From positions 1 to 64,000 of the forward strand of contig CACETF010000001.1 in the NCBI GenBank assembly GCA_902562425.1: 64,000 nucleotides of DNA. The letters run 5' to 3'. Shown here one piece after another: positions 5,347 to 55,650 of the stretch. The position numbers and the translations under genes are program-made. This DNA is from Porticoccaceae bacterium (GTDB lineage Bacteria > Pseudomonadota > Gammaproteobacteria > Pseudomonadales > Porticoccaceae). Below the pieces are notes generated by a model. That model made no database searches. It was not told where the DNA came from and worked only from the letters and a program-made list of their open reading frames with translations. Every line of letters starts with the position of its first letter. The first letter of the stretch is position 1.

Positions 5347-8098
5347 GGCGACTGTCCTGAGACTTGAATGAAGCTATTCTATCTGTTGCTATTACGACTG
5401 GCTTAAGCGGTTGCCAATCATTATCCCTGCTAATTTGAACATGAGCATCTGCGGTGAGCTGCTCAATTTCGTTATAACCAGCACTATAACCAGCGCACCC
5501 TTCTGCCATTCTTGAGGAAACTCGAACTGATATCGACATTTTTAAGTTCTCTCCCGTGACGACCACTCCATCACCATCGGAAACTTTCATATTGTTGGCG
5601 TCTTTGTCCGACAAAACAATAAAGGGTAGTCCTGCAAGCTGAGAAATTTCCTTTGTGTGGTAGGACATTTCCTCTGATCCATGGAGGGAATAAATCGGTA
5701 CCAACCGCCAGAAGTTCTTTTCTAAAGTAAAAGAGAATGTCGGGTCACAAGCTACGCTTACTCCGGAACCCGACGACTTGATTAATTTAACCCCTGACGC
5801 ACCTCCTTTCAAAGGCCCGTCAGTTTCGGCCTGAAATTTCTGCAGGGACTGATTTGAATTCCACCCTGGAGACCATACAAACGGAGTCAAGACCGACGGT
5901 TGATCACGGTTAAGCCCTTCCATGCTGTAAGCAAGGGGAGTCTCGTTATCGGGCGTTTGCTGAAGTTCATGGACTGATACATCTGCGGTTATAGCCGTAC
6001 GACCACTATTCCTGTGTGTTTGACGAGGGATCTTTAGTCCATGGTCACGAAAGTTTTTATTTGGGGCCACAGATAATAGAGCTTGAAAATTATTATTCTT
6101 TGCGCAGAGCTCAACTATCTCATCAAAACTCTCGATAGCTGAAAGCTCTTTATTTCCTATCGCACGGGCTAGCTCTATTACCCATTGCCAACTGGGCAAC
6201 CTATCGTTCAAGGGTGGAAATACAGAGTAAAAGCGTTGGGCTCGACCTTCGTTGTTGACAAGCGTACCTTGCGTTTCGGCAAATGAGGCAGCGGGTAGAA
6301 CCATATCCGACATTTCTAACGTTTCATTCTCAAGAATGTCTATTGAGATTATCTTAGCGGATGACGCATTAATTTGCTTCATCTCGAACGCACTCAATCG
6401 CCTAGACAAATCATTTTCTAACACTATTAGAACATCGATTTCATTAATGCCTTCGATAATTTTTTGCAGTGTCAGATTTTGGTCCTCACTAAGCAATATT
6501 GAGCCAATACTATTTGACTCTGGGGAAGTGAAGCTGAGTTGTGTGTTTTGATTAGACCTGACGAGTGCCTCTGCAACTGCTGCGGCACTCTCAACAATAT
6601 TCGCATTTAGTAAACTTGGCCCACTTATAATGAGTGGGCGCTCGGCGGTGGTTAGGTGGGTTGCTATCTCTGTAATTTGGGGGTCTTCAGAATCACCTTC
6701 AGTGAGGTGGCGAGCCAATTTCAGTCCGAAGTCGGCTATTTCTTCAGGTGCCAGAGTCATCGTCGCTAAAGCAATATCATCAAGTTTTGTCGAAGCAGGC
6801 GTCGCTATGAATAGTGGAGAGCGTTCTTCCTGCGCAAGATTTTTCACTGCGCCGTCATGCCATGCCTCAATACCCATTTCTTTAGCCATGGCTATCGCCT
6901 TGTTTTTGGTCGCTTGTCTTATTGCTAATGCTATTCTCGCAGCTGTGTTCGTCAAGTCTTCACCGAGGACCAATACGGCATCTGCCATTTCTATGTCCTT
7001 CACAGAGGGATTGCGTGCTTTGGTCGTTTGCAGAATAGAGACCTGGCGCTTTAAGATAGTTTGCTCTTTAAATGATAACCCTGCCGAGAAATTGGACGGA
7101 CCAACTAGTTTTTGCAGTAAATAGTTTGATTCAACTGATGCTCTCGGTGAGCCAATTCCCACAATATTTCCATCACCGATCCATCGGGTGAGGTGATAAG
7201 AAACCTCACCCCTTTTCAACGCCTTAAACGTGCCGCTCGGTTCCTTAAGGCCTACGTAGTCTGTTCGTTTGTCTCCATTTACATATCCAGCCCCAAACCT
7301 CCCTCTGTCACATATAAAGTATCCGTTGATTTCTTGATTGTAGCGGTTATGAATTCGTTTTAACCTTCCGTATCGCTCGCCAGGAGAGATATTGCACCCA
7401 ACACCGCAACCGCTGCATATTGAGGGGGAGGACTGTAGGTCCCACTTTCTGCTGTAGTCCTCAAGAAATGGTTTATCGGTAAATACTCCCGTGGGGCATA
7501 CCTCAACAAGGTTACCAGAGAATTCGCTCTCTAAAATGCCATCTTGATGTCGGCCAAAATAGATTCGGTCACGTGATGCTTGAGCAGCTAGGTCTTTTCC
7601 ACCGGCGTAGTCTCGATAAAAGCGTTCACAGCGATAACAAGTGATACACCGATTCATTTCATGGTTTATTAAGGGCCCTAAGTACTGATTTCGATGTGTG
7701 TTCTTTTTTCCTTTGTAGCGACGATCTCTGTGCCCCACCATCACCGTCATGTCTTGGAGATGGCACTCCCCCCCTTCTGAGCATACGGGGCAATCATGAG
7801 GATGATTCAGCATCAGCGACTCTACAACAGCCTCTCGGAACTCTTTTGCCTCATCAACTTTGAGAGATACTCTTGTCCCGTCAGCTGCCGGTGTCATGCA
7901 TCCCATAACTATCCGTCCATGCTTATCATCATCATCCCGATATTGGACGAGAGCACATTGCCTGCAGGATCCCACAGATCCCATTGCGGGATGCCAGCAA
8001 AAATAAGGTAGATCAAGACCCGCATCAAGGCAAGCTTCCAGCAAGTTTTTTCCTCTGCTCACCTCATATGATTTACCGTCAACGATTATGGTAGGCAT
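5339..8098 (-). CDS. nuoG: NADH-quinone oxidoreductase subunit G
   Basis: Iron-sulfur subunit of the complex I peripheral arm, with an N-terminal ferredoxin-like domain and a molybdopterin-oxidoreductase-like body that has lost its cofactor. Cluster ligands are visible in YFCWHPAMGSVGSCRQC, HDCPVCSEGGECHLQD, CITCYRCERFYRDYAGG and CSGCGVGCN. I chose the ATG at 8098, which gives a start MPTIIVDGKSYEV, 919 residues and a 2-nt gap from nuoF. The 11-residue in-frame extension upstream lies inside nuoF and looks spurious. The C-terminal half is the most variable part. Confidence 0.96.
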   Translation of the reverse strand: MPTIIVDGKSYEVSRGKNLLEACLDAGLDLPYFCWHPAMGSVGSCRQCALVQYRDDDDKHGRIVMGCMTPAADGTRVSLKVDEAKEFREAVVESLMLNHPHDCPVCSEGGECHLQDMTVMVGHRDRRYKGKKNTHRNQYLGPLINHEMNRCITCYRCERFYRDYAGGKDLAAQASRDRIYFGRHQDGILESEFSGNLVEVCPTGVFTDKPFLEDYSRKWDLQSSPSICSGCGVGCNISPGERYGRLKRIHNRYNQEINGYFICDRGRFGAGYVNGDKRTDYVGLKEPSGTFKALKRGEVSYHLTRWIGDGNIVGIGSPRASVESNYLLQKLVGPSNFSAGLSFKEQTILKRQVSILQTTKARNPSVKDIEMADAVLVLGEDLTNTAARIALAIRQATKNKAIAMAKEMGIEAWHDGAVKNLAQEERSPLFIATPASTKLDDIALATMTLAPEEIADFGLKLARHLTEGDSEDPQITEIATHLTTAERPLIISGPSLLNANIVESAAAVAEALVRSNQNTQLSFTSPESNSIGSILLSEDQNLTLQKIIEGINEIDVLIVLENDLSRRLSAFEMKQINASSAKIISIDILENETLEMSDMVLPAASFAETQGTLVNNEGRAQRFYSVFPPLNDRLPSWQWVIELARAIGNKELSAIESFDEIVELCAKNNNFQALLSVAPNKNFRDHGLKIPRQTHRNSGRTAITADVSVHELQQTPDNETPLAYSMEGLNRDQPSVLTPFVWSPGWNSNQSLQKFQAETDGPLKGGASGVKLIKSSGSGVSVACDPTFSFTLEKNFWRLVPIYSLHGSEEMSYHTKEISQLAGLPFIVLSDKDANNMKVSDGDGVVVTGENLKMSISVRVSSRMAEGCAGYSAGYNEIEQLTADAHVQISRDNDWQPLKPVVIATDRIASFKSQDSRHV

Positions 8099-8100
8099 AT

Positions 8101-9399
8101 CTAATGTACTCCGTCTATTTCGTAAGGACACCGGCCAAGCGTTACGTGATCCTTAAAGTCTTCGTAAAAATATTTCATTGCGCTTTGGAGGGGCTCCATA
8201 GCACCGGGAGCTAAAGCACAATGAGTATTTCCGGGGGTTCCTATGTATTTGACTTGATATGCCAGAGTTTCGAGATCCTCTTCACTTCCCTTCCCATTTT
8301 CTAGGTCCTCTAACACTTGACGAGTCCAAGGGAGTCCATCTCGGCACGGTGTGCAAAAACCACAGGACTCTTGCGCAAAGAATCGTATCAGGTTCAAAAC
8401 CATTCCTACAGGACAAGATTGGTCGTCTAGGACAATCATCGTGCCGGTACCCATGCGACTTCCGGCGGCACCGATTACGTTATAGTCCATCGGTAAGTCT
8501 AGGTGACTTTCTATTAAGAAGTCGGTTGAGCCACCACCCGGTAAAAGACCTTTAAAGTTAAGTCCAGTTTGCATGCCGTCGGCATAATTCTCTAGGATTT
8601 GCCGAATTGGTGTCCCCATGGGAAGCTCCCAACAACCAGGATTTTTTACGCGCCCACTCACTCCAAACAACTTTGTCCCACTGTCCTCTCCCACTCCTAG
8701 CGTCTTGAACCATTCGGCACCTTTGTGGATGATATGTGGAATATTGCAGAGAGTTTCTACATTGTTGACTATTGTAGGGCGGCCCCACAGACCACTTACT
8801 TGGGGGAAAGGCGGTTTTGCTCTTGGATTTGCACGTTTCCCCTCTAAAGCGTTGATAAGTGCAGTTTCTTCGCCACATATATATCGGCCCGCACTCGGAT
8901 GAACATACATTTCAAGGCTGAACGCAGATCCTAGGATATTTCTCCCCAAATAACCTGAGTTGTAACATTCCTTGATTGCTTCATTTAGACGTTGTATGGC
9001 TAATCGATATTCTCCTCTTATAAAAATATAGGCTACATCAGCGCCGATTGTGTAGGCCGAGAGAATCATACCTTCTATTAGCTGATGAGGGTCTTGCTCC
9101 ATCAGTAGCCGGTCTTTAAATGTACCTGGTTCCATCTCGTCAGCATTGCATATGAGGTATTTATGTCCTGGTAAGCAGTCTTCGTTTTTTGGCACAAAAC
9201 TCCATTTAGTACCCGTCGGGAATCCGGCGCCACCGCGCCCCCGAAGCTTCGAATTTTTTACTTCCGAAAGACACTCAGCCGGTGCCATAGATTTGAGCGC
9301 TTTTCGTAATCCTAAGTATCCCTCACTGGCTTCGTACTTATCAATCGGAGTAGTATCGTTAACTTTGGATATGTTTTTAGTAAGAACTTTTTCGGTCAC
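8101..9399 (-). CDS. nuoF: NADH-quinone oxidoreductase subunit F
   Basis: FMN- and NADH-binding subunit of complex I, the electron entry point. Glycine-rich GRGGAGFPTGTKWSF is the NADH/FMN site, and CGFCTPCRDG plus a later Cys bind the N3 [4Fe-4S] cluster. Its 432 residues match the family. It overlaps nuoE by 4 nt (ATGA-type junction) and leads into nuoG with a 2-nt gap. Confidence 0.97.
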   Translation of the reverse strand: MTEKVLTKNISKVNDTTPIDKYEASEGYLGLRKALKSMAPAECLSEVKNSKLRGRGGAGFPTGTKWSFVPKNEDCLPGHKYLICNADEMEPGTFKDRLLMEQDPHQLIEGMILSAYTIGADVAYIFIRGEYRLAIQRLNEAIKECYNSGYLGRNILGSAFSLEMYVHPSAGRYICGEETALINALEGKRANPRAKPPFPQVSGLWGRPTIVNNVETLCNIPHIIHKGAEWFKTLGVGEDSGTKLFGVSGRVKNPGCWELPMGTPIRQILENYADGMQTGLNFKGLLPGGGSTDFLIESHLDLPMDYNVIGAAGSRMGTGTMIVLDDQSCPVGMVLNLIRFFAQESCGFCTPCRDGLPWTRQVLEDLENGKGSEEDLETLAYQVKYIGTPGNTHCALAPGAMEPLQSAMKYFYEDFKDHVTLGRCPYEIDGVH

Positions 9400-9911
9400 T
9401 TTTCACCTTCTTTTCTATAATAAGCAATTATTTGTTCTAACTTAGATGAATTCAAATTTGTAAATAAGTCATCTCCCACCATCATCACAGGAGCTTTGTC
9501 ACAAGCACCTAGGCATGGGACGGGAAGCAGGGTGAATTGGTTGTCTTTGGTAGTTTCTCCGTAGTCTATTTTTAAGATTTCTGAGAGCTTATGTTTTTGG
9601 TTCTCACATCCACAGAGCCAGCAACTCACGCTGTCACAAAATAGAATGACCTTGTCGCCTACCGGTCTTCTGAATATTAAATTGTAGAACGTTGCTATAC
9701 CCTCTAATTCCTCGGCAGACATTTCGAGAAGTTTGGCAATGGCAATTAGGCATTCGTCTGAAACCCAGCCACGTTTCGCTTGAACTATTTTCAACGCATC
9801 AATAGCTGCCCCCGATTTTTGTGGTACGTGAGAGAGTTCTAAATTTATGAGTTGAAGCTCCTCTGATGTCAGAGTGGAGGCGGTTTCTGACTGAATAATA
9901 TTATCAATCAT
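9396..9911 (-). CDS. nuoE: NADH-quinone oxidoreductase subunit E
   Basis: Thioredoxin-fold subunit carrying the off-pathway [2Fe-2S] cluster N1a. The likely ligands lie in [11 protein letters not shown] and [10 protein letters not shown]. It has 171 residues and overlaps nuoCD by 4 nt and nuoF by 4 nt. The helical N-terminal domain ([19 protein letters not shown]) is typical of NuoE. Confidence 0.96.
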
Positions 9912-43730: not shown

Positions 43731-45200
43731 CTATGAAGGCTGACCTTGCGGTCGAACATGTTTTGCTAGCAGTCTCTTTTTCTCCAATACAACTTTGGGA
43801 TGTGTTCGGTGTGCCCAAATTGCCTTTCGAGCATATTTGCCACTTTTTGCGATATCCACAATCGGAAGAGGGTAGTCCCTGCCTATTTCAAAGTTATAAA
43901 AAGCTTGCTCAATCGGTGGTATGGTCCAGGGTTCATGAATGTACTGATCGGGGAGATTTAATAACTCGGGCACCCAACGTCTTATAAAGATTCCGTTTGG
44001 GTCATGCTCGAGAGATTGTTTCACCGGATTATAAATCCGAATAGTATTGATACCAGTCACGCCAGCCTGCATTTGGAACTGAGGGAAATGAATACCCGGT
44101 TCATAATCTAAGAATTGTTGAGCAAGAAAATGGGATCCCGCTCGCCAGTCCTGATACAAGTGATGGCAAAGAAATGAAACTAACATTGCACGCATTCGAA
44201 AATTCAACCATCCATTTTGAATTACGCTTCTCATGCATGCGTCAATAAGTGGATATCCGGTGGTTCCGCTCTTCCATTTAGCAACGAAATCTTGGTCTAC
44301 TGGTTTTTCTAATTCTTCAAAACCTTGATTTATGCAACGATTTTCGTAACTGCATTCCATTTCAAACTTTTGTATAAAGTGGCAACGCCATTTTAGCCGG
44401 GTGAGGAATGCGTCAAAGACTTTCTTTTGCATAGAATAGTTTGGATGATTTTTTATAAACTGATAAACCTGTCGAGAGGATATGTTTCCCCAAGCTAGAT
44501 ATGGCGAAATTCTCCCGTTACTGAATCGGCTGTCATTAGGTTTTGAAATATTAATCAAATAATCGTGGTGACGACCAGATGCAAATGATTGGAGATACTT
44601 CCATGCATTTTTTTCGCCCGCCGGCTGAAAATATTTGGGGTATTTTCGTATAGAATCTTGTAATTTTTTAGGCATGAGGAAACAGTTTGGGAATGAAATA
44701 TTTGGGCGCTTTCGGAATACGTTTTTTACGCATTCGCCCCTAGCATGCTTATACCAAAGTCCGTCCCAGCCTTTTCGGTTTGTGATGCCGCGAACGACGC
44801 CATTGCACTGAAACTGTAGCCATTGGATTCCTCTTTCTTTGAAAAAATTTTCGATGACTACATCTCTTTTCCAACTCTCATACGTTCCTGATTCTTGATA
44901 ACTCATTACATACTCGATCTGAAAAATTTTGGAAAGCTGTTCAAAAACCGTTGGTGCTTCCCCGAAGAGGGTTTTGATATTTATGTTATTTGACTCGAAT
45001 TTTTCCGAAATAGCGCTCATTGACTGAGAAGTGAATTGCAAGTGTCGTAGAGAAAAGTCTCCTCTTTGAAGCCAGCTTGGTTCTATGATGAATATTACGA
45101 CGTATGGTGTCTGGTGTTTTTCAGCTTCAGCCAAAGGACTGTGGTCCTGAGTACGGAGGTCCCGCTTTAACCACACGACATTGATTCGTTGTTTCTCCAA
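43731..45200 (-). CDS. Photolyase/cryptochrome family protein
   Basis: 489 residues. N-terminal photolyase alpha/beta domain opens with [18 protein letters not shown]. The C-terminal FAD-binding domain contains [38 protein letters not shown] and [16 protein letters not shown], with [21 protein letters not shown]. It is a member of the deoxyribodipyrimidine photolyase family that repairs UV dimers in light with reduced FAD, or a photoreceptor derived from it. Sub-class not assigned. It converges with the metalloprotease operon and forms the left flank of the light-related block. Confidence 0.88.
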
Positions 45201-45588: not shown

Positions 45589-46725
45589 TCACTTTAAGTC
45601 GGCGAGAGGGTGTTCGGAGGGTAACCAAGGGCTTTTGAAAAACGGTTCAATCATCTCAGGAGTTACATCATCAAGACTCACAGGATACCAATTGGGGGAG
45701 TGATCTTTATCGATAATTAAAGCTCTTATGCCCTCGATGGTTTCACTATTTTTGCTTACTAGGTTTTCGTTAAATGTATAAAAGCAATGCTGAGCAAGGT
45801 CCCTCTCCATCCTGAGACACTCCGCCAAAGTTAGAGATTGCCCATAACTGAGTTGTCTATAGGTAACACATAGCATTATTGGAGAGCGCTTTTTGAGTTT
45901 TAGGAGAGTTTTTTCTACCCATTCTCCATCTAATTTAGCGAGCTTTTCTACAGCTTTATTTAAGGACTCTTGCCCAAATATAAACGCTAATCGAGGATCG
46001 AACCATGATGGTGTATGAGTACTATCTTTTAAATTTATGCACTGAGCTTGTAATTTGTTGATCCTATCCCTCACGTTTGTGAAGCTAGATTTTGTTAATA
46101 AATTCCAATTATTCAGCAAGTCCTTGCTCATTAGTAAACCATCAGCTAGACCAGTGGCTATAGCATCATCGCCGGATAGTACTTGTCCTGTGATCCCGAT
46201 GTATTTGCCGATGTTGTTTTCACATTGATTCAGGAAGAAACTGGCCCCAACATCGGGGAAAAAACCTATGTTGGTCTCTGGCATAGCCATCCTAGTGCGT
46301 TCCGTCACTATTCGAAAAGATGCTCCTTGTGAAAGACCCATACCTCCCCCCATCACAACTCCGTCCATAAATGCTATGTAAGGCTTGGGGTAAGAGTAAA
46401 TCAGATGAGTTAAACGATACTCGGCGGTGAAAAAATCGCTTAATGACTCGTCTTCTTTATAACTTGCGCCATAAAAGAAGCGGATATCTCCTCCGGCGCA
46501 GAAATCGCCAAAAGGACCGATTTTATTGCAACCGCGAATTGCGACCGCCTCTACCTCCGGTTGATCTCGCCATTCAATTAGTAGATCGGTTAATTGGAGC
46601 ACCATATCAAGAGTTAACGCGTTAAGCGCTGCAGGACGATTTAATGTAACGCAACCTACACCCGCACTAATCTCTGCTTTTATGTGTTCCATCACTTTTA
46701 AAATATTAACACTCCAAGGTTGCAT
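45589..46725 (-). CDS. 3-hydroxyisobutyryl-CoA hydrolase / enoyl-CoA hydratase-isomerase family
   Basis: About 378 residues, crotonase fold. VGCVTLNRPAALNALTLDMV is the N-terminal family motif, FCAGGDIRFFY holds the oxyanion-hole region, and MPETNIGFFPDVGASFFL contains the Glu and Asp of hydrolase-type members. Length and the last motif favour 3-hydroxyisobutyryl-CoA hydrolase (valine catabolism) over plain hydratases. The ATG at 46725 overlaps the fni stop (TGATG), so it is the last gene of the retinal cluster; a start at 46692 is also possible. Its presence there is unexpected. Confidence 0.8.
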   Translation of the reverse strand: MQPWSVNILKVMEHIKAEISAGVGCVTLNRPAALNALTLDMVLQLTDLLIEWRDQPEVEAVAIRGCNKIGPFGDFCAGGDIRFFYGASYKEDESLSDFFTAEYRLTHLIYSYPKPYIAFMDGVVMGGGMGLSQGASFRIVTERTRMAMPETNIGFFPDVGASFFLNQCENNIGKYIGITGQVLSGDDAIATGLADGLLMSKDLLNNWNLLTKSSFTNVRDRINKLQAQCINLKDSTHTPSWFDPRLAFIFGQESLNKAVEKLAKLDGEWVEKTLLKLKKRSPIMLCVTYRQLSYGQSLTLAECLRMERDLAQHCFYTFNENLVSKNSETIEGIRALIIDKDHSPNWYPVSLDDVTPEMIEPFFKSPWLPSEHPLADLK

Positions 46726-47750
46726 CAAAGCTGTTTGAGTCTTGGAGACTTTAAAAGATTAGCTTCTTTTAGTTTTTCCAAAGAGTTTTTACCTGTCAGA
46801 AACATTGTTCTTTTGAGTTGTTCACTTACGATTTCTATTTTTTCCATCACAGCCGACGAAGAGTCTATTGCGGGACTCAAAAATGGCTGTGCAAGTGCAG
46901 TCATTTTTGCTCCTAAACGGATACAACGTGCGACATCGAGACCATGCCGAACGCCTCCAGAGGCGATTAAGTTTAAAGGTTCGTCAAACCTACTTAATTC
47001 ATAAAGAACTTCACAGGTTGACATCCCCCAAGTGATGAAAGGCTGCATAATTTCGCGTTCTTTATGTGAGTCATTACGAGCAAGCTCTATGGTTGCCCAG
47101 TTGGTGCCACCAAAACCAGCTGTTTCTAGCCAGGCCACGCCTACAGATAAAAGATCTCGTGCAGCGGTAGGCCCTATGCCTACTCCAACTTCCTTCGCAA
47201 GAATAGGTACGTCAAGGTGCTTGCAACATTTTTCTATCGCATTCAAGACACCACACCAATTGTGATCGCCGTTTGGTTGACTGAGCTCTTGCAGTGGATT
47301 AAGGTGAATCATTAACCCATCCGCTTCTATACTGTCTATGGCTTTTTTTGCCAAGTCTATCCCGCCACACGCAATTTGTGTGCCTCCTAAATTTCCAAGT
47401 AGCACTGTATTAGGAGCCCAACTGCGAATCTTCTGTGGTAGCCCCAACTCCAATGATGCTCTTTGAGATCCAAGAGCCATGGGAACTCTGCAGTATTCCG
47501 CGGCGATAGCAAGATTTTTGTTAATCATATCACTATGATCGCATCCACCAGTCATAGCGCCAATAATGATCGGAGCACTGCATTGGCGGCCTAAAAATGT
47601 ACATTCGATGTTCACGGAGTGAAGGTCGATTTCTGGAATTGCTGAGGGCTCGAAACAGATTTCATCGAAGTTGTTACCTGCACTGGATTGATGACTGCGA
47701 TCCAATGCAAGATTAATATGATCTTCTTTACGTTTTTGGATGTCAGTCAT
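46725..47750 (-). CDS. fni: Isopentenyl-diphosphate delta-isomerase, type 2
   Basis: FMN- and NADPH-dependent isomerase that balances IPP and DMAPP, feeding carotenoid synthesis. Family marks include RKEDHI near the start, APIIIGAMTGG, MALGSQRA, HLNPLQELSQPNGDHNW and VAWLETAGFGGTNWA..E. About 341 residues from the ATG at 47750, which overlaps the blh stop by 8 nt; an upstream ATG seven codons earlier lies inside blh. Type 2 enzyme in a proteorhodopsin cluster fits a retinal supply role. Confidence 0.93.
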   Translation of the reverse strand: MTDIQKRKEDHINLALDRSHQSSAGNNFDEICFEPSAIPEIDLHSVNIECTFLGRQCSAPIIIGAMTGGCDHSDMINKNLAIAAEYCRVPMALGSQRASLELGLPQKIRSWAPNTVLLGNLGGTQIACGGIDLAKKAIDSIEADGLMIHLNPLQELSQPNGDHNWCGVLNAIEKCCKHLDVPILAKEVGVGIGPTAARDLLSVGVAWLETAGFGGTNWATIELARNDSHKEREIMQPFITWGMSTCEVLYELSRFDEPLNLIASGGVRHGLDVARCIRLGAKMTALAQPFLSPAIDSSSAVMEKIEIVSEQLKRTMFLTGKNSLEKLKEANLLKSPRLKQL

Positions 47751-48558
47751 AATGTTTGTCAAGCAAATCAATTAGGATCATATGAGGCACTGTAAGTGCG
47801 GCAAGGCCAATAAAAGTTACTTGGATTAAAATCGGTTCCAAATTGAGATTTGGCTTACTTAGGAAAAAGAGTACCAAGAATATCCCTGATAACCAAGTAA
47901 TCAGTGTGTAACTAGCCGCCTCTACTGATGATCGCAGGCGTTCTTGAGGCTTGATCCCAGTCCATACAAGAAAGCTATGAGTCGGACTGTGAATCAGGCA
48001 GAAATAAAGTGCGAAACTTATAAGTGGATCCAGAATATATGTACTCATGAATACACCAGCTGCTATGCAGGTAGTGGGAACCCACTTATTATGAAAATAG
48101 CTATAACAGAGATAGATTAAAAGAGTAACTAGCCACGGAACGAGTAGAGATTTAGAAGTGGCAACTAATAGGTCGGCAGTATCTTCTCCCGCCAAGATGG
48201 TGAAAATGGGTTGAACGTCTGATGGGTGTAGTCCTGGTATACCAATTACGATGAGTCCGCAGTGTGAAATAAGAGGTACAACATTTGACCATTTCCAAGG
48301 ATATTCGACTATTTTGATATCACTTGTCCCAAAGTGAATTGCAGATAAGATTAGGAATATTGTTAAACTTACGCCCGGCAAATACCACCAAATAATTGCG
48401 ACTATTATTGCAAGCAAAAGATAGCTCAAATGGAAAATTAGCCACTCAAAAACCGTTTTAGACCAACCAGCACGCCTTGCTATTGCGCCATCCAAACCAC
48501 CATGAGGAACGCCAATCAGCATGACAGCAACGATCGCAATATAATCCAAGCTAGACAT
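47743..48558 (-). CDS. blh: Beta-carotene 15,15'-dioxygenase (Brp/Blh family)
   Basis: Membrane enzyme that splits beta-carotene into two retinal molecules. 271 residues with about seven hydrophobic helices. Conserved His-bearing segments are VPHGGLDGAIARRAG near the N-terminus, IHFGTSD, and LIHSPTHSFLVW, which supply the iron ligands of the family. It overlaps crtY by 8 nt and fni by 8 nt. Its presence indicates that the cluster is meant to make retinal for the adjacent rhodopsin. Confidence 0.92.
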   Translation of the reverse strand: MSSLDYIAIVAVMLIGVPHGGLDGAIARRAGWSKTVFEWLIFHLSYLLLAIIVAIIWWYLPGVSLTIFLILSAIHFGTSDIKIVEYPWKWSNVVPLISHCGLIVIGIPGLHPSDVQPIFTILAGEDTADLLVATSKSLLVPWLVTLLIYLCYSYFHNKWVPTTCIAAGVFMSTYILDPLISFALYFCLIHSPTHSFLVWTGIKPQERLRSSVEAASYTLITWLSGIFLVLFFLSKPNLNLEPILIQVTFIGLAALTVPHMILIDLLDKHYD

Positions 48559-49678
48559 TAAATATTTGCTTCAAGAAAGGGATTTTTGGCATTGCCGCTA
48601 TAACGCGAACCCAGTCGAATGTAGTTGCTTTACCGAGCATGAAGCGGGCAAATTGCTCACCATTTAGTGCTTCGGCCAATTTCATGAAAAGACTCGGTCC
48701 TATTTCAGGATATTCGGTTGCGACTCGGTTGAATATCGTATCCATAAGTACTATTCTTTCAGAGATAGGCTCAGGGACATTATAATTTTCCTGACTGATT
48801 TGTTGAGCAAGGCAAGAAGCCTGTTTCTGTATATAACTAAAGCCATAACCTGATGACCGTCTCAGTGCCCCACTTGCTGCGCCAATGGTAGGTATTTTTT
48901 CGTTACGAGGGATAACCTCATCCATTGGAATCACACCAACCTCCTCGCTGAGATACGATTTGACAATGATCTCCCGTTCATTTAACCAACGATCTATAGC
49001 ATTTCTATACCAGTTTTGAGGTTCTAAGCTCTGAGAGATCATTGTTGATTCAACAAGAAGGTGAGTAGAAGAAAACGGTAGGACATAAATAAAATGTAGC
49101 CCTCGGGTTTGATCCACCCGAAAATCCATGAGGGTAGCTATTTGCCACGCCGACATTGGATTTCTGATCTTTACTTCAACTCCTAAAAAGTGCTGTAAAA
49201 GGCCATTCGGTCGAACAGATGGTGGACGACTATCATAGACATGAGTTGCAGAGAAAGACTGATCGCCACTTTCTATGATATATTGGCTTGGTGTTTTTCT
49301 CACGGATTTCACCGCCTCAGGAATTATATGGATTTTTTCACTGAGTTGGCTTTCGCACAAACTTAAATATTTAGTTGAGCTGAGGCATGTGTAATCGAAG
49401 GAAGGACTGTCTCTGACGACGCTGCGACTGTAGTCTACTAGTTGCCATTGACACCAGCTGCCTTTTACCGCGTGATTTAAAAGCTGTCTTTGGTTTCCAT
49501 CGGTCCAAAGACTCCAATGGAGCTCTTTTTTCATTTTGTGTGCTGGTTCAAAGATGCACACAGTCTTAGCGACATTTAGTCTTGATAGTTCGGAGGCAAG
49601 ACTAAATCCAGCATTACCGCCTCCTATTATTACTATGTCAAAGGTTGTTGACACCGGCGAGACCCAGTAACGGCTCAT
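48551..49678 (-). CDS. crtY: Lycopene beta-cyclase
   Basis: FAD-dependent cyclase that converts lycopene to beta-carotene. Dinucleotide-binding DIVIIGGGNAGFSLASEL begins at about residue 14. The internal HVYDSRPP and the RSSGYGFSYIQKQA segments are typical of the CrtY family, and 375 residues is the normal length. Its first 41 nt overlap crtB. Confidence 0.93.
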   Translation of the reverse strand: MSRYWVSPVSTTFDIVIIGGGNAGFSLASELSRLNVAKTVCIFEPAHKMKKELHWSLWTDGNQRQLLNHAVKGSWCQWQLVDYSRSVVRDSPSFDYTCLSSTKYLSLCESQLSEKIHIIPEAVKSVRKTPSQYIIESGDQSFSATHVYDSRPPSVRPNGLLQHFLGVEVKIRNPMSAWQIATLMDFRVDQTRGLHFIYVLPFSSTHLLVESTMISQSLEPQNWYRNAIDRWLNEREIIVKSYLSEEVGVIPMDEVIPRNEKIPTIGAASGALRRSSGYGFSYIQKQASCLAQQISQENYNVPEPISERIVLMDTIFNRVATEYPEIGPSLFMKLAEALNGEQFARFMLGKATTFDWVRVIAAMPKIPFLKQIFNV

Positions 49679-50588
49679 GTAATTTTTGTTGATGAGTTGG
49701 AGTTTTCTTCGGAATAAATACCGATAATCCGAATAGTGTAAGCTGAATTTTTTTAAAAGCTGAAACGACTTGGCGGCCTTGCCACCAACAATATTTTTCT
49801 TCTTTTAGTTGTCTACCGATTTGTCTATAAACCCTTAAAGCGACATTGATTGCAAACCTTGATCTCCTGGGAAGAAGGACAATCCCCTGCTCAGCACTTT
49901 CATAGTATTGCTCAGCGAGTTTAAGTAGTTTTTCAATTGCAGAAGAAACTTTAATGCGTAAATCAATAGAGGCATCAACCCAACTGCAAGGTTCGGACTG
50001 AAGCTCTGTTAAATTCAGCCATTCTGATGGAATATAGCGCCTGCCCATTTGCGCATCTTCTAAGACATCCCTTGCAATATTTGTCAATTGCATGGCTACT
50101 CCGAGGTCAATTGCAAAGCTATCTGCATCCTTATGAGAGCAGTCCAAGACTCGACACATCATAAGCCCGACAGTGCCTGCCACCGCGTGGCAGTAACGGA
50201 GAAGTTGTTTTGTATTATCAAATCTAGCAGGAATTTGATCAGAGATCATTCCTTCTAAGAGTTCTTGAGCTGCTACCAGTGGGATGCTCTTTTTTTTAGC
50301 TAATACCAAAAAATTTTTAGTTTCAAGTTCATCCTCGTGTAGGCGTACTTCACCAGCCAGATATCCATGAATGTTTTTTAGCCGTTCAATTCTATTGTTA
50401 TCAGTGCCATCTGCTAAATCGTCCAAGAATCTGCAGAATTTATAAAGTTGTGCTGCACTTTCAGCATAATGATTACCCAAAAACAAACTTGCAAAATAAA
50501 ATGATTTGCCATGTGCCGCAAGGACCGCGATTGGTTTTGGGTCGGGTATTGCAGACTGATACTGCGCGAGCGATTTAGAAGTATACAT
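49638..50588 (-). CDS. crtB: Phytoene synthase
   Basis: Condenses two GGPP to phytoene. 316 residues. The first Asp-rich site is FCRFLDDLADG and the second lies in AMQLTNIARDVLEDAQMGRRYIP. The N-terminus KSFYFASLFLG is standard. The gene follows crtE after 107 nt; the phytoene desaturase gene crtI, normally between the two, is not there. Confidence 0.94.
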   Translation of the reverse strand: MYTSKSLAQYQSAIPDPKPIAVLAAHGKSFYFASLFLGNHYAESAAQLYKFCRFLDDLADGTDNNRIERLKNIHGYLAGEVRLHEDELETKNFLVLAKKKSIPLVAAQELLEGMISDQIPARFDNTKQLLRYCHAVAGTVGLMMCRVLDCSHKDADSFAIDLGVAMQLTNIARDVLEDAQMGRRYIPSEWLNLTELQSEPCSWVDASIDLRIKVSSAIEKLLKLAEQYYESAEQGIVLLPRRSRFAINVALRVYRQIGRQLKEEKYCWWQGRQVVSAFKKIQLTLFGLSVFIPKKTPTHQQKLHEPLLGLAGVNNL

Positions 50589-50695
50589 TTGAGTGGCTCT
50601 TACTCTCGTACAAGTAGGAAAAGCAAAAGGAAGTTTCCCACCTTGATTATTGGCATGGTCAACTAATGACTAATTTGCAACCAACCCTTGATAAC

Positions 50696-51667
50696 TTATG
50701 CAATCCTACCACGCTGAGTTTCTGTAATTTTTTTATCATTTACAGATGCTACTAATTGAGTTGCGACTTCTCGGAGAGGCGAGGGAACGCTTGGAACTAT
50801 TAGCTCCGCCTCTGCAAGCCATATATCCAAAGCGTGATTTGCTCTCACAATCGCTTGGCTCGAAGCAATTCGCTGTTGCCATTGACTCACTTTTGATGTA
50901 TCCCCTGAGTTATACCAGCGAATGAAATCCTCATTTCCAGTATTATTTTCATTAAACAAACTGACCACAAGGTTAGGTTTTCGCCCGTCTAGATCACATG
51001 ATCGGTGACTAGAGGGAACTATGTCGTCTATATCATTTCGCCCCTGGTACACGAGGCTGCAGAGACTAACTAAATTTTTGAGGCTTTGCAACGAGTAGTC
51101 AAAATTTGATGCCAGAGCCACTCCCGCGATTGGAGCCAATAAAAACGGGGACGTTTTTCCAGACGCAATTCGCTTCCATTGATTTGTTGTTATGCACCGC
51201 TTTTGCCCAACATCGGACGCCTGACCGACACAAGTTTGTTGCATTGCGGTTGCCAACTGACCCACTAATTGACCACCGTGCGTTTTGTTTTTGGAAGCCA
51301 GTTCAAAAGCTTTAGCAACCATCCAGTCGCCTAGGCAGAGGGCTGTGTCAATTCCAAAGTGTTCGTGAATACTTTTCTGGCCACGTCTGTGGGTGCTTGC
51401 ATCGCTAATATCATCGTGGACAAGGGAGGCATTATGTATGAGTTCGCAGGCAGCTGCCCAAATTAAAACATCGTGATAGCGCAACCGAAGGGCTTCGCCA
51501 CTAGCTAAAACTAACTGAGCTCTAAATCCTTTGCCGGGGTTTCTAAAATGATATTTTGCAGCATTAAGAAGACCTGACTCTCGGGACGGAAGTTCCCGTT
51601 GAAATAAATCGCCGAGTTGGGTTAAAAAAACCCCGACACTTAATCTGCTTCTTATTATTGGGGGCAT
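50696..51667 (-). CDS. crtE: Geranylgeranyl diphosphate synthase (polyprenyl synthetase)
   Basis: Prenyl chain elongation to GGPP. 323 residues. The first Asp-rich motif is LVHDDISD, with the second region altered to GRNDIDDI. KGFRAQLVLASGEAL near the N-terminus and GDWMVAKAFELA are also typical. An AAGGG lies 9 nt upstream of the ATG. It is the first cluster gene after proteorhodopsin, separated from it by a structured 133-nt spacer. Confidence 0.9.
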   Translation of the reverse strand: MPPIIRSRLSVGVFLTQLGDLFQRELPSRESGLLNAAKYHFRNPGKGFRAQLVLASGEALRLRYHDVLIWAAACELIHNASLVHDDISDASTHRRGQKSIHEHFGIDTALCLGDWMVAKAFELASKNKTHGGQLVGQLATAMQQTCVGQASDVGQKRCITTNQWKRIASGKTSPFLLAPIAGVALASNFDYSLQSLKNLVSLCSLVYQGRNDIDDIVPSSHRSCDLDGRKPNLVVSLFNENNTGNEDFIRWYNSGDTSKVSQWQQRIASSQAIVRANHALDIWLAEAELIVPSVPSPLREVATQLVASVNDKKITETQRGRIA

Positions 51668-51800: not shown

Positions 51801-52490
51801 TTATTCTGCGGAGTCAGCGACTGCTGCTACCCAAATAAACAGACCGAATCCAATCTTGTTAACCAAGTCGGCGATGTTATATATGCCATTTAAAGCATCA
51901 GCGTTTACACCACCAGCGAGGTAACCAAGGAAGTAACCCAAAGGATAAATGGCCCATCCGATGGTGACAATCCACTTCATGCCGTTGAATGCCATTTGGC
52001 AGTTCGCATTGCCGCTGGCAGCATTGATTTGGCTCGCTTCACCAGCAAAAATTTCATATAGAATGAAAATCCAGCCTGCCATCCCAATAATGAAACCAAG
52101 AGTTGGATCCATAAACCCAGCTTCACCTGCAAAACCGCCGAGCAACATAACAATTGTTCCTAACAACAGGCGCCAGAAAACACCGGAGGCAACTACTGCA
52201 ATAGCAGCAAGAATTAAGTAGAATTCAATCATCTGTAGGGGAACTGTGATCAACCAATCTATGTATCTATAAACTGTTGGGGTTTCACCTGTTTCTACCC
52301 AAACAGCCCTCATGTAGAAATAGTGTACCGCAGCTACAAGTTGAATGAGACCAGCGACGGTGAGCGACGTTTTCCAATGTGACTTGACCCTATCGCGCTC
52401 AATGAAAAAGAATACAGCTGCCGCTACCATGGCCATTGATATTAGCCAAAAGGAAATGCCAACTGGATCGTTAGCTTCTAAATTAGTCAT
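51801..52490 (-). CDS. Proteorhodopsin, light-driven proton pump, blue-tuned
   Basis: Seven-helix retinal protein, 229 residues. Helix C reads YRYIDWLITVPLQMIEFY: Asp78 (proton acceptor, D97 in eBAC31A08 numbering), Thr82 (T101) and Glu89 (proton donor, E108). The H75 equivalent is His56 in AAVHYFYM. The Schiff-base Lys is K212 in DLVNKIGFG (K231). Gln86 occupies the spectral tuning site 105, where Gln gives blue and Leu green absorption. There is no N-terminal signal peptide, which accounts for the 19-20 residue difference. It is followed by the retinal genes. Confidence 0.97.
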   Translation of the reverse strand: MTNLEANDPVGISFWLISMAMVAAAVFFFIERDRVKSHWKTSLTVAGLIQLVAAVHYFYMRAVWVETGETPTVYRYIDWLITVPLQMIEFYLILAAIAVVASGVFWRLLLGTIVMLLGGFAGEAGFMDPTLGFIIGMAGWIFILYEIFAGEASQINAASGNANCQMAFNGMKWIVTIGWAIYPLGYFLGYLAGGVNADALNGIYNIADLVNKIGFGLFIWVAAVADSAE

Positions 52491-54342: not shown

Positions 54343-55650
54343 TCATACACGGGTAATTGGCCAATCCACAATATCAGCTGAGTCGAGATACTGGTCACAT
54401 TTCTCGCCTTGCCAAGAATTTATAAACGTGAAATTCGGGTCATAAACAGCTCTTTGTTTGCTCAAGTTGAAGTGTCTCCCACCTCTCGGATCGGTACCCA
54501 CGCCGGCTATGTACTGCCAATTACCCCAGTTGGAGGCAAAATCATAATCGATAAGTTTCTGAGCAAAGTATGCAGCTCCGTAGCGCCAATCGAGAGAGAG
54601 TTCGTTGACGAGACAACTCGCCACAATTTGCCTGCCGCGATTTGACATGTAACCTTCAGCATTTAGTTGGCTCATACATGCATTTACAAGTGGGAACGGA
54701 GTGTTTGCTGAACACCACTTTTTAAAGCGTTGGGGGTTAAAAAAAGTTTTTGGAGAACGATTTGAGAGGCCTGAAAATTTTGTCAGCGTTGAGGGATAAG
54801 TTTTTGCATACCACTGGAAGTATTCTCGCCATAGAAGTTCAAAGTAAATCCAGTAAGTAGATTCACTTGCCCCTGCAACAAGTTCATATTTCTTCAAGCT
54901 ATGAAATGTTTGGCGTACTGAGAGACACCCATTGCTGAGCCAAACTGAAAATTTGGTCGAATTTTTCCATCCGTCCAAGGCATTTCGTGTCTGTTTGTAA
55001 GAACTTGCATGTTGACCCTTAAAATAATCGTGTAAGTGTTTTTTACCCTCCCGTTCGCCACCAGCAAAAAGACAATCAGCTGGTTTAAATTTTATTTGCC
55101 AATGTTTTGGTTTGCCTACAGGAGGGGGTAGCGACGAAGGACAAGCGACTGGGTCTTTTATGGCTAGATGCTCGACCGCTCGGCGAAATTTTGAAAACGT
55201 TGCAGGGAAGTGATTCGATTCAAAAGGGAGTTGGCTCTCATCGAAGAGTGTCGATGTGAACTCTTCTTTAAAGTCGATTGCGGGGTATGCTTTCTTGATG
55301 GCTTCCCAGTAATTATTGGCGGATTGTCTCGGTTGCCAGCTTCGGTAGATGACGTTTGGGTTGAATTCGTCAATAAATGAGCAGATATCAGCCTTCGATT
55401 TAACCACTAATCTATCTATGCGCTGTCCAAAACGTTTTAACTCCGTATCTAGCGCACACAAGCTCTGGGATCGGAATTGCCTACGCAGGTCAGACTCGTT
55501 TATGCCAAATTGTTGCTTGAGATCATCTTTGGTTTCTAAATATACACATGCTAAAGTCTTACATTCTTTGGCTGCGGAAACCAGACATAAGTTGTCGTAT
55601 ACTCTCAAGTCGTTCGAAAAAAACACGCAACCTAATTCAAATCGTTCCAT
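54343..55650 (-). CDS. Cryptochrome DASH-type photolyase
   Basis: 435 residues. N-terminal CVFFSNDLRVYDNLCL is the photolyase-related domain. The FAD domain shows the DASH signature SNRGRQIVASCLVNELSLDWRYGA, followed by SNWGNWQYIAGVGTDPRGGR and FNLSKQ. CRY-DASH enzymes repair cyclobutane dimers in single-stranded DNA and may signal light. It forms the right flank of the light block and starts 153 nt from the divergent DUF3429 gene. Confidence 0.93.
   Translation of the reverse strand: MERFELGCVFFSNDLRVYDNLCLVSAAKECKTLACVYLETKDDLKQQFGINESDLRRQFRSQSLCALDTELKRFGQRIDRLVVKSKADICSFIDEFNPNVIYRSWQPRQSANNYWEAIKKAYPAIDFKEEFTSTLFDESQLPFESNHFPATFSKFRRAVEHLAIKDPVACPSSLPPPVGKPKHWQIKFKPADCLFAGGEREGKKHLHDYFKGQHASSYKQTRNALDGWKNSTKFSVWLSNGCLSVRQTFHSLKKYELVAGASESTYWIYFELLWREYFQWYAKTYPSTLTKFSGLSNRSPKTFFNPQRFKKWCSANTPFPLVNACMSQLNAEGYMSNRGRQIVASCLVNELSLDWRYGAAYFAQKLIDYDFASNWGNWQYIAGVGTDPRGGRHFNLSKQRAVYDPNFTFINSWQGEKCDQYLDSADIVDWPITRV

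Follow-up and report, generated by a model that had tools for sequence, protein, structure and literature searches.

The proteorhodopsin-retinal gene cluster in the window (the whole stretch of 64,000 nucleotides that was analysed) has no crtI gene, and the most probable explanation, at about 0.87, is that a distant homologue elsewhere in the genome has taken over from crtI, leaving the retinal pathway complete. This explanation is based on gene content, synteny, family assignment, phylogeny, purifying selection and the lack of co-occurrence of two CrtI types, A and B. From these we infer the activity and product of the enzyme, the sequence in which genes were gained and lost, and the joint expression of the two loci. 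The best reading is one of gene replacement and relocation in a known module and not of a broken pathway.

Open reading frames and family profiles agree on the order proteorhodopsin, crtE, 107 nt, crtB, crtY, blh and fni, with every gene on the minus strand, and confirm the order without crtI given by the sequence-only reading. The proteorhodopsin gene (51801-52490) matches PF01036 with 154 bits. The GGPP synthase gene crtE (50696-51667; PF00348) has an intact first aspartate motif, DDISD, and in the phytoene synthase gene crtB (49638-50588; PF00494) both the DDLAD and the DVLED motifs are intact. The lycopene beta-cyclase gene crtY (48551-49678) matches PF05834 with 154 bits and is below the NCBIfam equivalog cut-off. 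The genes blh (47743-48558), encoding beta-carotene 15,15'-dioxygenase, and fni (46725-47771), encoding type 2 isopentenyl-diphosphate isomerase, score 183 bits for TIGR03753 (cut-off 95) and 338 bits for TIGR02151 (cut-off 281), and are followed by an enoyl-CoA hydratase/isomerase-like gene (45589-46728, minus strand) named from its sequence. Proteorhodopsin, crtE, crtB, crtY and blh are all found together, as is characteristic of a proteorhodopsin-retinal cluster; crtI is absent from it, and a type-A crtI is instead found on a separate contig. The proteorhodopsin retains the retinal-binding lysine (DLVNK) and has a Q at the spectral-tuning site (TVPLQMIEFYLIL), which suggests absorption of blue light. 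Two photolyase/cryptochrome-like genes, also named from sequence, bracket the retinal cluster (43731-45200 and 54343-55650), and the same is seen in the sister genomes.

The spacer between crtE and crtB (50589-50695, minus strand) is exactly 107 nt long and contains no crtI-like open reading frame. In local alignment against the crtI DNA of four sister genomes it scored no higher than shuffled spacers; there is no detectable remnant, as had been read from the window alone, and the spacer was rejected as a crtI scar. Weak single matches were obtained with the corresponding spacers of two related genomes, G002 and G009 (reached by 0.045 and 0.095 of shuffles), and were not significant among 12 comparisons. 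A pattern scan identified no promoter in the spacer, regional counts being close to the shuffled mean. The spacer is 106-107 nt in six related genomes and its lack of crtI is therefore not an accident of assembly. In six sister genomes of the same genus this site is occupied by a crtI of the B type encoding 504 amino acids, which overlaps crtE by 4 nt and stops 3 nt before crtB. Both forms of the cluster have the same flanking genes.

The assembly to which the window belongs (SAR92/Porticoccaceae, designated G000; 2.24 Mb in 38 contigs, 89.6% complete) was searched for desaturases of the amine-oxidase family across its contigs. An intact CrtI-family desaturase of 542 amino acids with no internal stop was found outside the window (G000:C4:14063-15691:+). 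It is the only CrtI-type protein found in this 89.6% complete genome, and none of the remaining matches is a CrtI, CrtP or CrtQ. Such a genome-wide search had been suggested in the sequence-only reading, which had named an intact crtI elsewhere as the result that would speak against a missing step. Of its two proposals, a desaturase encoded elsewhere is supported and imported carotenoid is not: with another version of CrtI on another contig the pathway looks complete, and imported pigment is not needed. The gene on C4 is, however, not the cluster's own crtI moved to a new site, but a distant CrtI type in its place. Type B is the usual CrtI of proteorhodopsin clusters, while type A is the lineage found in Myxococcota, Chloroflexota, Meiothermus and some cyanobacteria. 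The C4 protein, crtI_A, is 62-68% identical to CrtI of these groups over nearly the whole length and about 37-39% identical to type B of the sister clusters. In the analysis of Klassen (2010, PMC2889829) the CrtI proteins of proteorhodopsin producers form one sub-clade, and those of Chloroflexi and Gloeobacter fall outside it. The Gloeobacter enzyme has been assigned to the four-step desaturases (PMC7713294).

The CrtI family model TIGR02734 gave 531.9 bits for crtI_A (cut-off 238.1). None of the alternative equivalog cut-offs was reached, the scores being 186 of 580 and 184 of 500 bits for CrtD, 78 of 1000 for CrtO and 113 of 587 for the isomerase. The best sequence match in the PDB is Pantoea ananatis CrtI (4dgk, E 2e-133), and the structures closest to the predicted model (mean pLDDT 77) are gamma-carotene desaturase 4rep and CrtI 4dgk. 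Residues P54, T55, V56, F144, L189, H322, H323, Y351, H353 and Y371 of the FAD motif and the tunnel are the same as in 4dgk, and the columns GAGFGG, GPTV, HH, YLH and Y371 match, so that the N-terminal FAD dinucleotide motif is present, as are most of the tunnel residues described for P. ananatis CrtI (PMC3382138). R148, D149 and R152 of P. ananatis are replaced by K, T and S; a catalytic role for these three, with D149 as catalytic base, is a proposal only (PMC3382138). Position 149 is D in most type-B enzymes of the family, whereas type A has T, S, A, E or some other residue there. It varies also in more distant type-B enzymes, and its variability across type-A CrtI argues against a general role as catalytic base.

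Three layouts were found in Porticoccaceae. In layout 1, type-B crtI is located between crtE and crtB. In layout 2 (L041, L042, L148, L156, L159 and L161) crtE adjoins crtB and a type-A crtI closes the cluster, immediately after the enoyl-CoA hydratase-like gene. Layout 3, that of the window, has crtE, 107 nt and crtB, with an unlinked type-A crtI; it comprises G000, G010, G012, G009, G005 and G002, all six with the crtI-less cluster. In G000, G010, G012 and G009 crtI_A is found at one syntenic locus, beside a gene for 154 amino acids, with 84-95% identity. The contig of G005 stops inside the last codons of crtI_A and the region is unassembled in G002, so assembly gaps account for these two cases and a true absence was rejected. 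An empty crtI_A site could not be defined in the sister genomes, where the neighbouring genes differ.

Among 112 genomes of the family 12 have type A, 44 have type B (a count that omits a probable contaminant in G005) and none has both. Both types would be expected in 4.7 genomes under independence, giving a probability of 0.0016 of finding none, a figure that ignores relatedness. The gene blh is present in 57 of the family genomes, and in the few of these that lack CrtI a contig end or a gap could account for it (G103, G107 and G007 looked at directly, G079 judged from match coordinates).

Three further loci carry related genes. One contig of G010 (C82, locus L043, 3-2365) has a second proteorhodopsin, 60% identical to that of the window, together with a divergent crtE and part of a type-B-like crtI, truncated by the contig end. 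This contig could be contamination or carry a second cluster; if it is native, G010 holds another crtI. A contig of G005 (C44, locus L048, 6033-15951) has open reading frames that read as bchD, bchI, crtI, crtB, tspO and crtD. It is probably an anoxygenic photosynthesis cluster on a contaminant contig, and its crtI and crtB, lying beside bchI/bchD- and crtD-like frames that were read from sequence, were rejected as substitutes. A SAR92 relative has a second proteorhodopsin cluster (G083:C73, locus L163, 720-7756), which contains proteorhodopsin, crtE and a gene for a 770-aa CrtI-CrtB fusion (PF01593 and PF00494). It also has a 232-aa frame like a CrtYcd-type cyclase and a Blh-like frame, with a REP-transposase-like frame in front, all named from sequence.

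In the phylogenetic tree of the other cluster proteins, layout 3 joins the layout-1 members of its own genus (100/100), and a single clade of layouts 2 and 3 was rejected (p-AU 2.5e-5). The CrtI tree was built without distant outgroups, the inclusion of which made branch lengths unusable. In it the type-A proteins of layouts 2 and 3 fall into a single clade (100/98), the sister of which is one Myxococcota assembly (L063). The conflict between the two trees shows that the desaturase has had a history different from that of the other cluster genes. The simple reading is that the ancestor of layout 3 lost type B, since the sister genomes and other genera of the family have type B at the same site. 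Between the SAR92 groups crtI_A is about 74% identical at a crtB identity of 51-57%, which matches the relation between crtI_B and crtB. This fits ordinary divergence, so that the switch is old; a recent transfer of crtI_A was not supported. The pattern may have arisen by transfer between relatives or by differential loss after an ancestor that had both types, and the two are not distinguishable here. In the Myxococcota assembly crtE, crtB and crtI_A form one run (5864-9611), and its CrtI is 73% identical to that of G000. Its position as sister to the SAR92 type-A clade gives a hint of transfer between Myxococcota and SAR92.

Together these observations suggest that the ancestor of the SAR92 subclade lost the type-B crtI between crtE and crtB, and that phytoene desaturation would have passed to a type-A CrtI encoded alone elsewhere in the genome. 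CrtE and CrtB would then produce GGPP and phytoene, and type-A CrtI would probably convert phytoene to all-trans-lycopene by four FAD-dependent desaturations, an activity and product assigned from family membership. CrtY would form beta-carotene, which Blh would cleave to the retinal bound by proteorhodopsin. The dN/dS of crtI_A is 0.07-0.11, below that of crtB and crtY in most pairs. With such strong purifying selection on crtI_A, the gene content supports this route from GGPP through phytoene, lycopene, beta-carotene and retinal to proteorhodopsin.

The C4 gene could instead encode a CrtI-family enzyme with another function, such as partial or C-3,4 desaturation or action on a different carotenoid, while the phytoene step is carried out by a gene in an assembly gap. 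The functions of the CrtI family are varied (PMC2889829), the three proposed catalytic residues differ, and, G000 being 89.6% complete, a second desaturase could sit in a gap. Myxococcus xanthus divides desaturation between two CrtI proteins (PMC2889829), and as the nearest relatives of crtI_A are myxobacterial a partial desaturase is possible. Another function is nevertheless improbable, because the six related assemblies have no further candidate except on contigs judged to be contaminants or secondary clusters, and because layout 2 has type A at the end of its crt cluster and likewise no type B. The mutual exclusion of types A and B is as expected for one shared function, and crtI_A is part of a crtE-crtB-crtI run in the myxococcal relative.

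It is very unlikely that desaturation is truly lacking and that Blh cleaves beta-carotene from other organisms, with CrtE, CrtB and CrtY as relics or serving another purpose. The cluster lacks crtI in six genomes, as this would require, but an intact CrtI-family gene is under selection elsewhere in G000, and the conserved aspartate motifs of crtE and crtB together with purifying selection on crtB and crtY would make no sense if beta-carotene were imported. Least likely of all, and already contradicted, is that C4 is a misbinned foreign contig: such contigs exist, the one with the photosynthesis-like cluster in G005 probably being an example, but synteny at the locus is shared by four separate genomes of the genus, with its 3' end in a fifth, GC3 of the gene is 0.40 and equals the window mean of 0.40, and the reported contamination of G000 is 0.13%.

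Replacement of the cluster's crtI by a distant homologue is thus preferred. An extension of it is doubtful, namely that the two mutually exclusive CrtI lineages replaced each other more than once at this one step in SAR92/Porticoccaceae, and that in the subclade of the window the unlinked, separately transcribed desaturase would have become a point at which retinal supply is controlled independently of the proteorhodopsin operon, or would make carotenoids beyond the needs of retinal.

The exclusion of types A and B across the family offers a clear natural example of one gene being replaced inside a module. When an operon lacks a gene, a broken pathway or reliance on neighbours is readily assumed; here the gap is most likely the result of a swap. 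Surveys of retinal synthesis that expect crtI within the proteorhodopsin cluster, or that rely on likeness to the usual proteorhodopsin-type CrtI, would give the wrong result for this group. No description of crtI replacement in Porticoccaceae was found in the open-access text searched.

Compared with the marine proteorhodopsin clusters of the same genus, which have the order crtE-crtI-crtB-crtY-blh (G001, G003, G004 and G013 and, over the extent of their contigs, G008 and G011), the window has the same genes and order except for crtI. The flanks are also shared, with photolyase-like and beta-lactamase-like genes before and the enoyl-CoA hydratase-like gene after, whereas the subclade of the window has the 106-107 nt spacer in place of crtI. 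The CrtI proteins of the Chloroflexota, Meiothermus, Gloeobacter-like and Myxococcota lineage have FAD and tunnel residues in common with crtI_A; the host of crtI_A differs in being a gammaproteobacterium, with a probable use for retinal. In P. ananatis CrtI (4dgk; PMC3382138) the tunnel histidines and tyrosines are the same, but the protein has about 492 residues compared with 542, in addition to the three substitutions at 148, 149 and 152. Shuffling of genes in the proteorhodopsin module has been described as rarer than transfer of the whole module (PMC2889829). Fosmid HF10_29C11 from the same study, compared by its description only, resembles the present case in that single genes of the proteorhodopsin cluster have a history unlike the rest. 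That example is one named clone, whereas here a whole subclade is involved and the desaturase has been relocated off the cluster.
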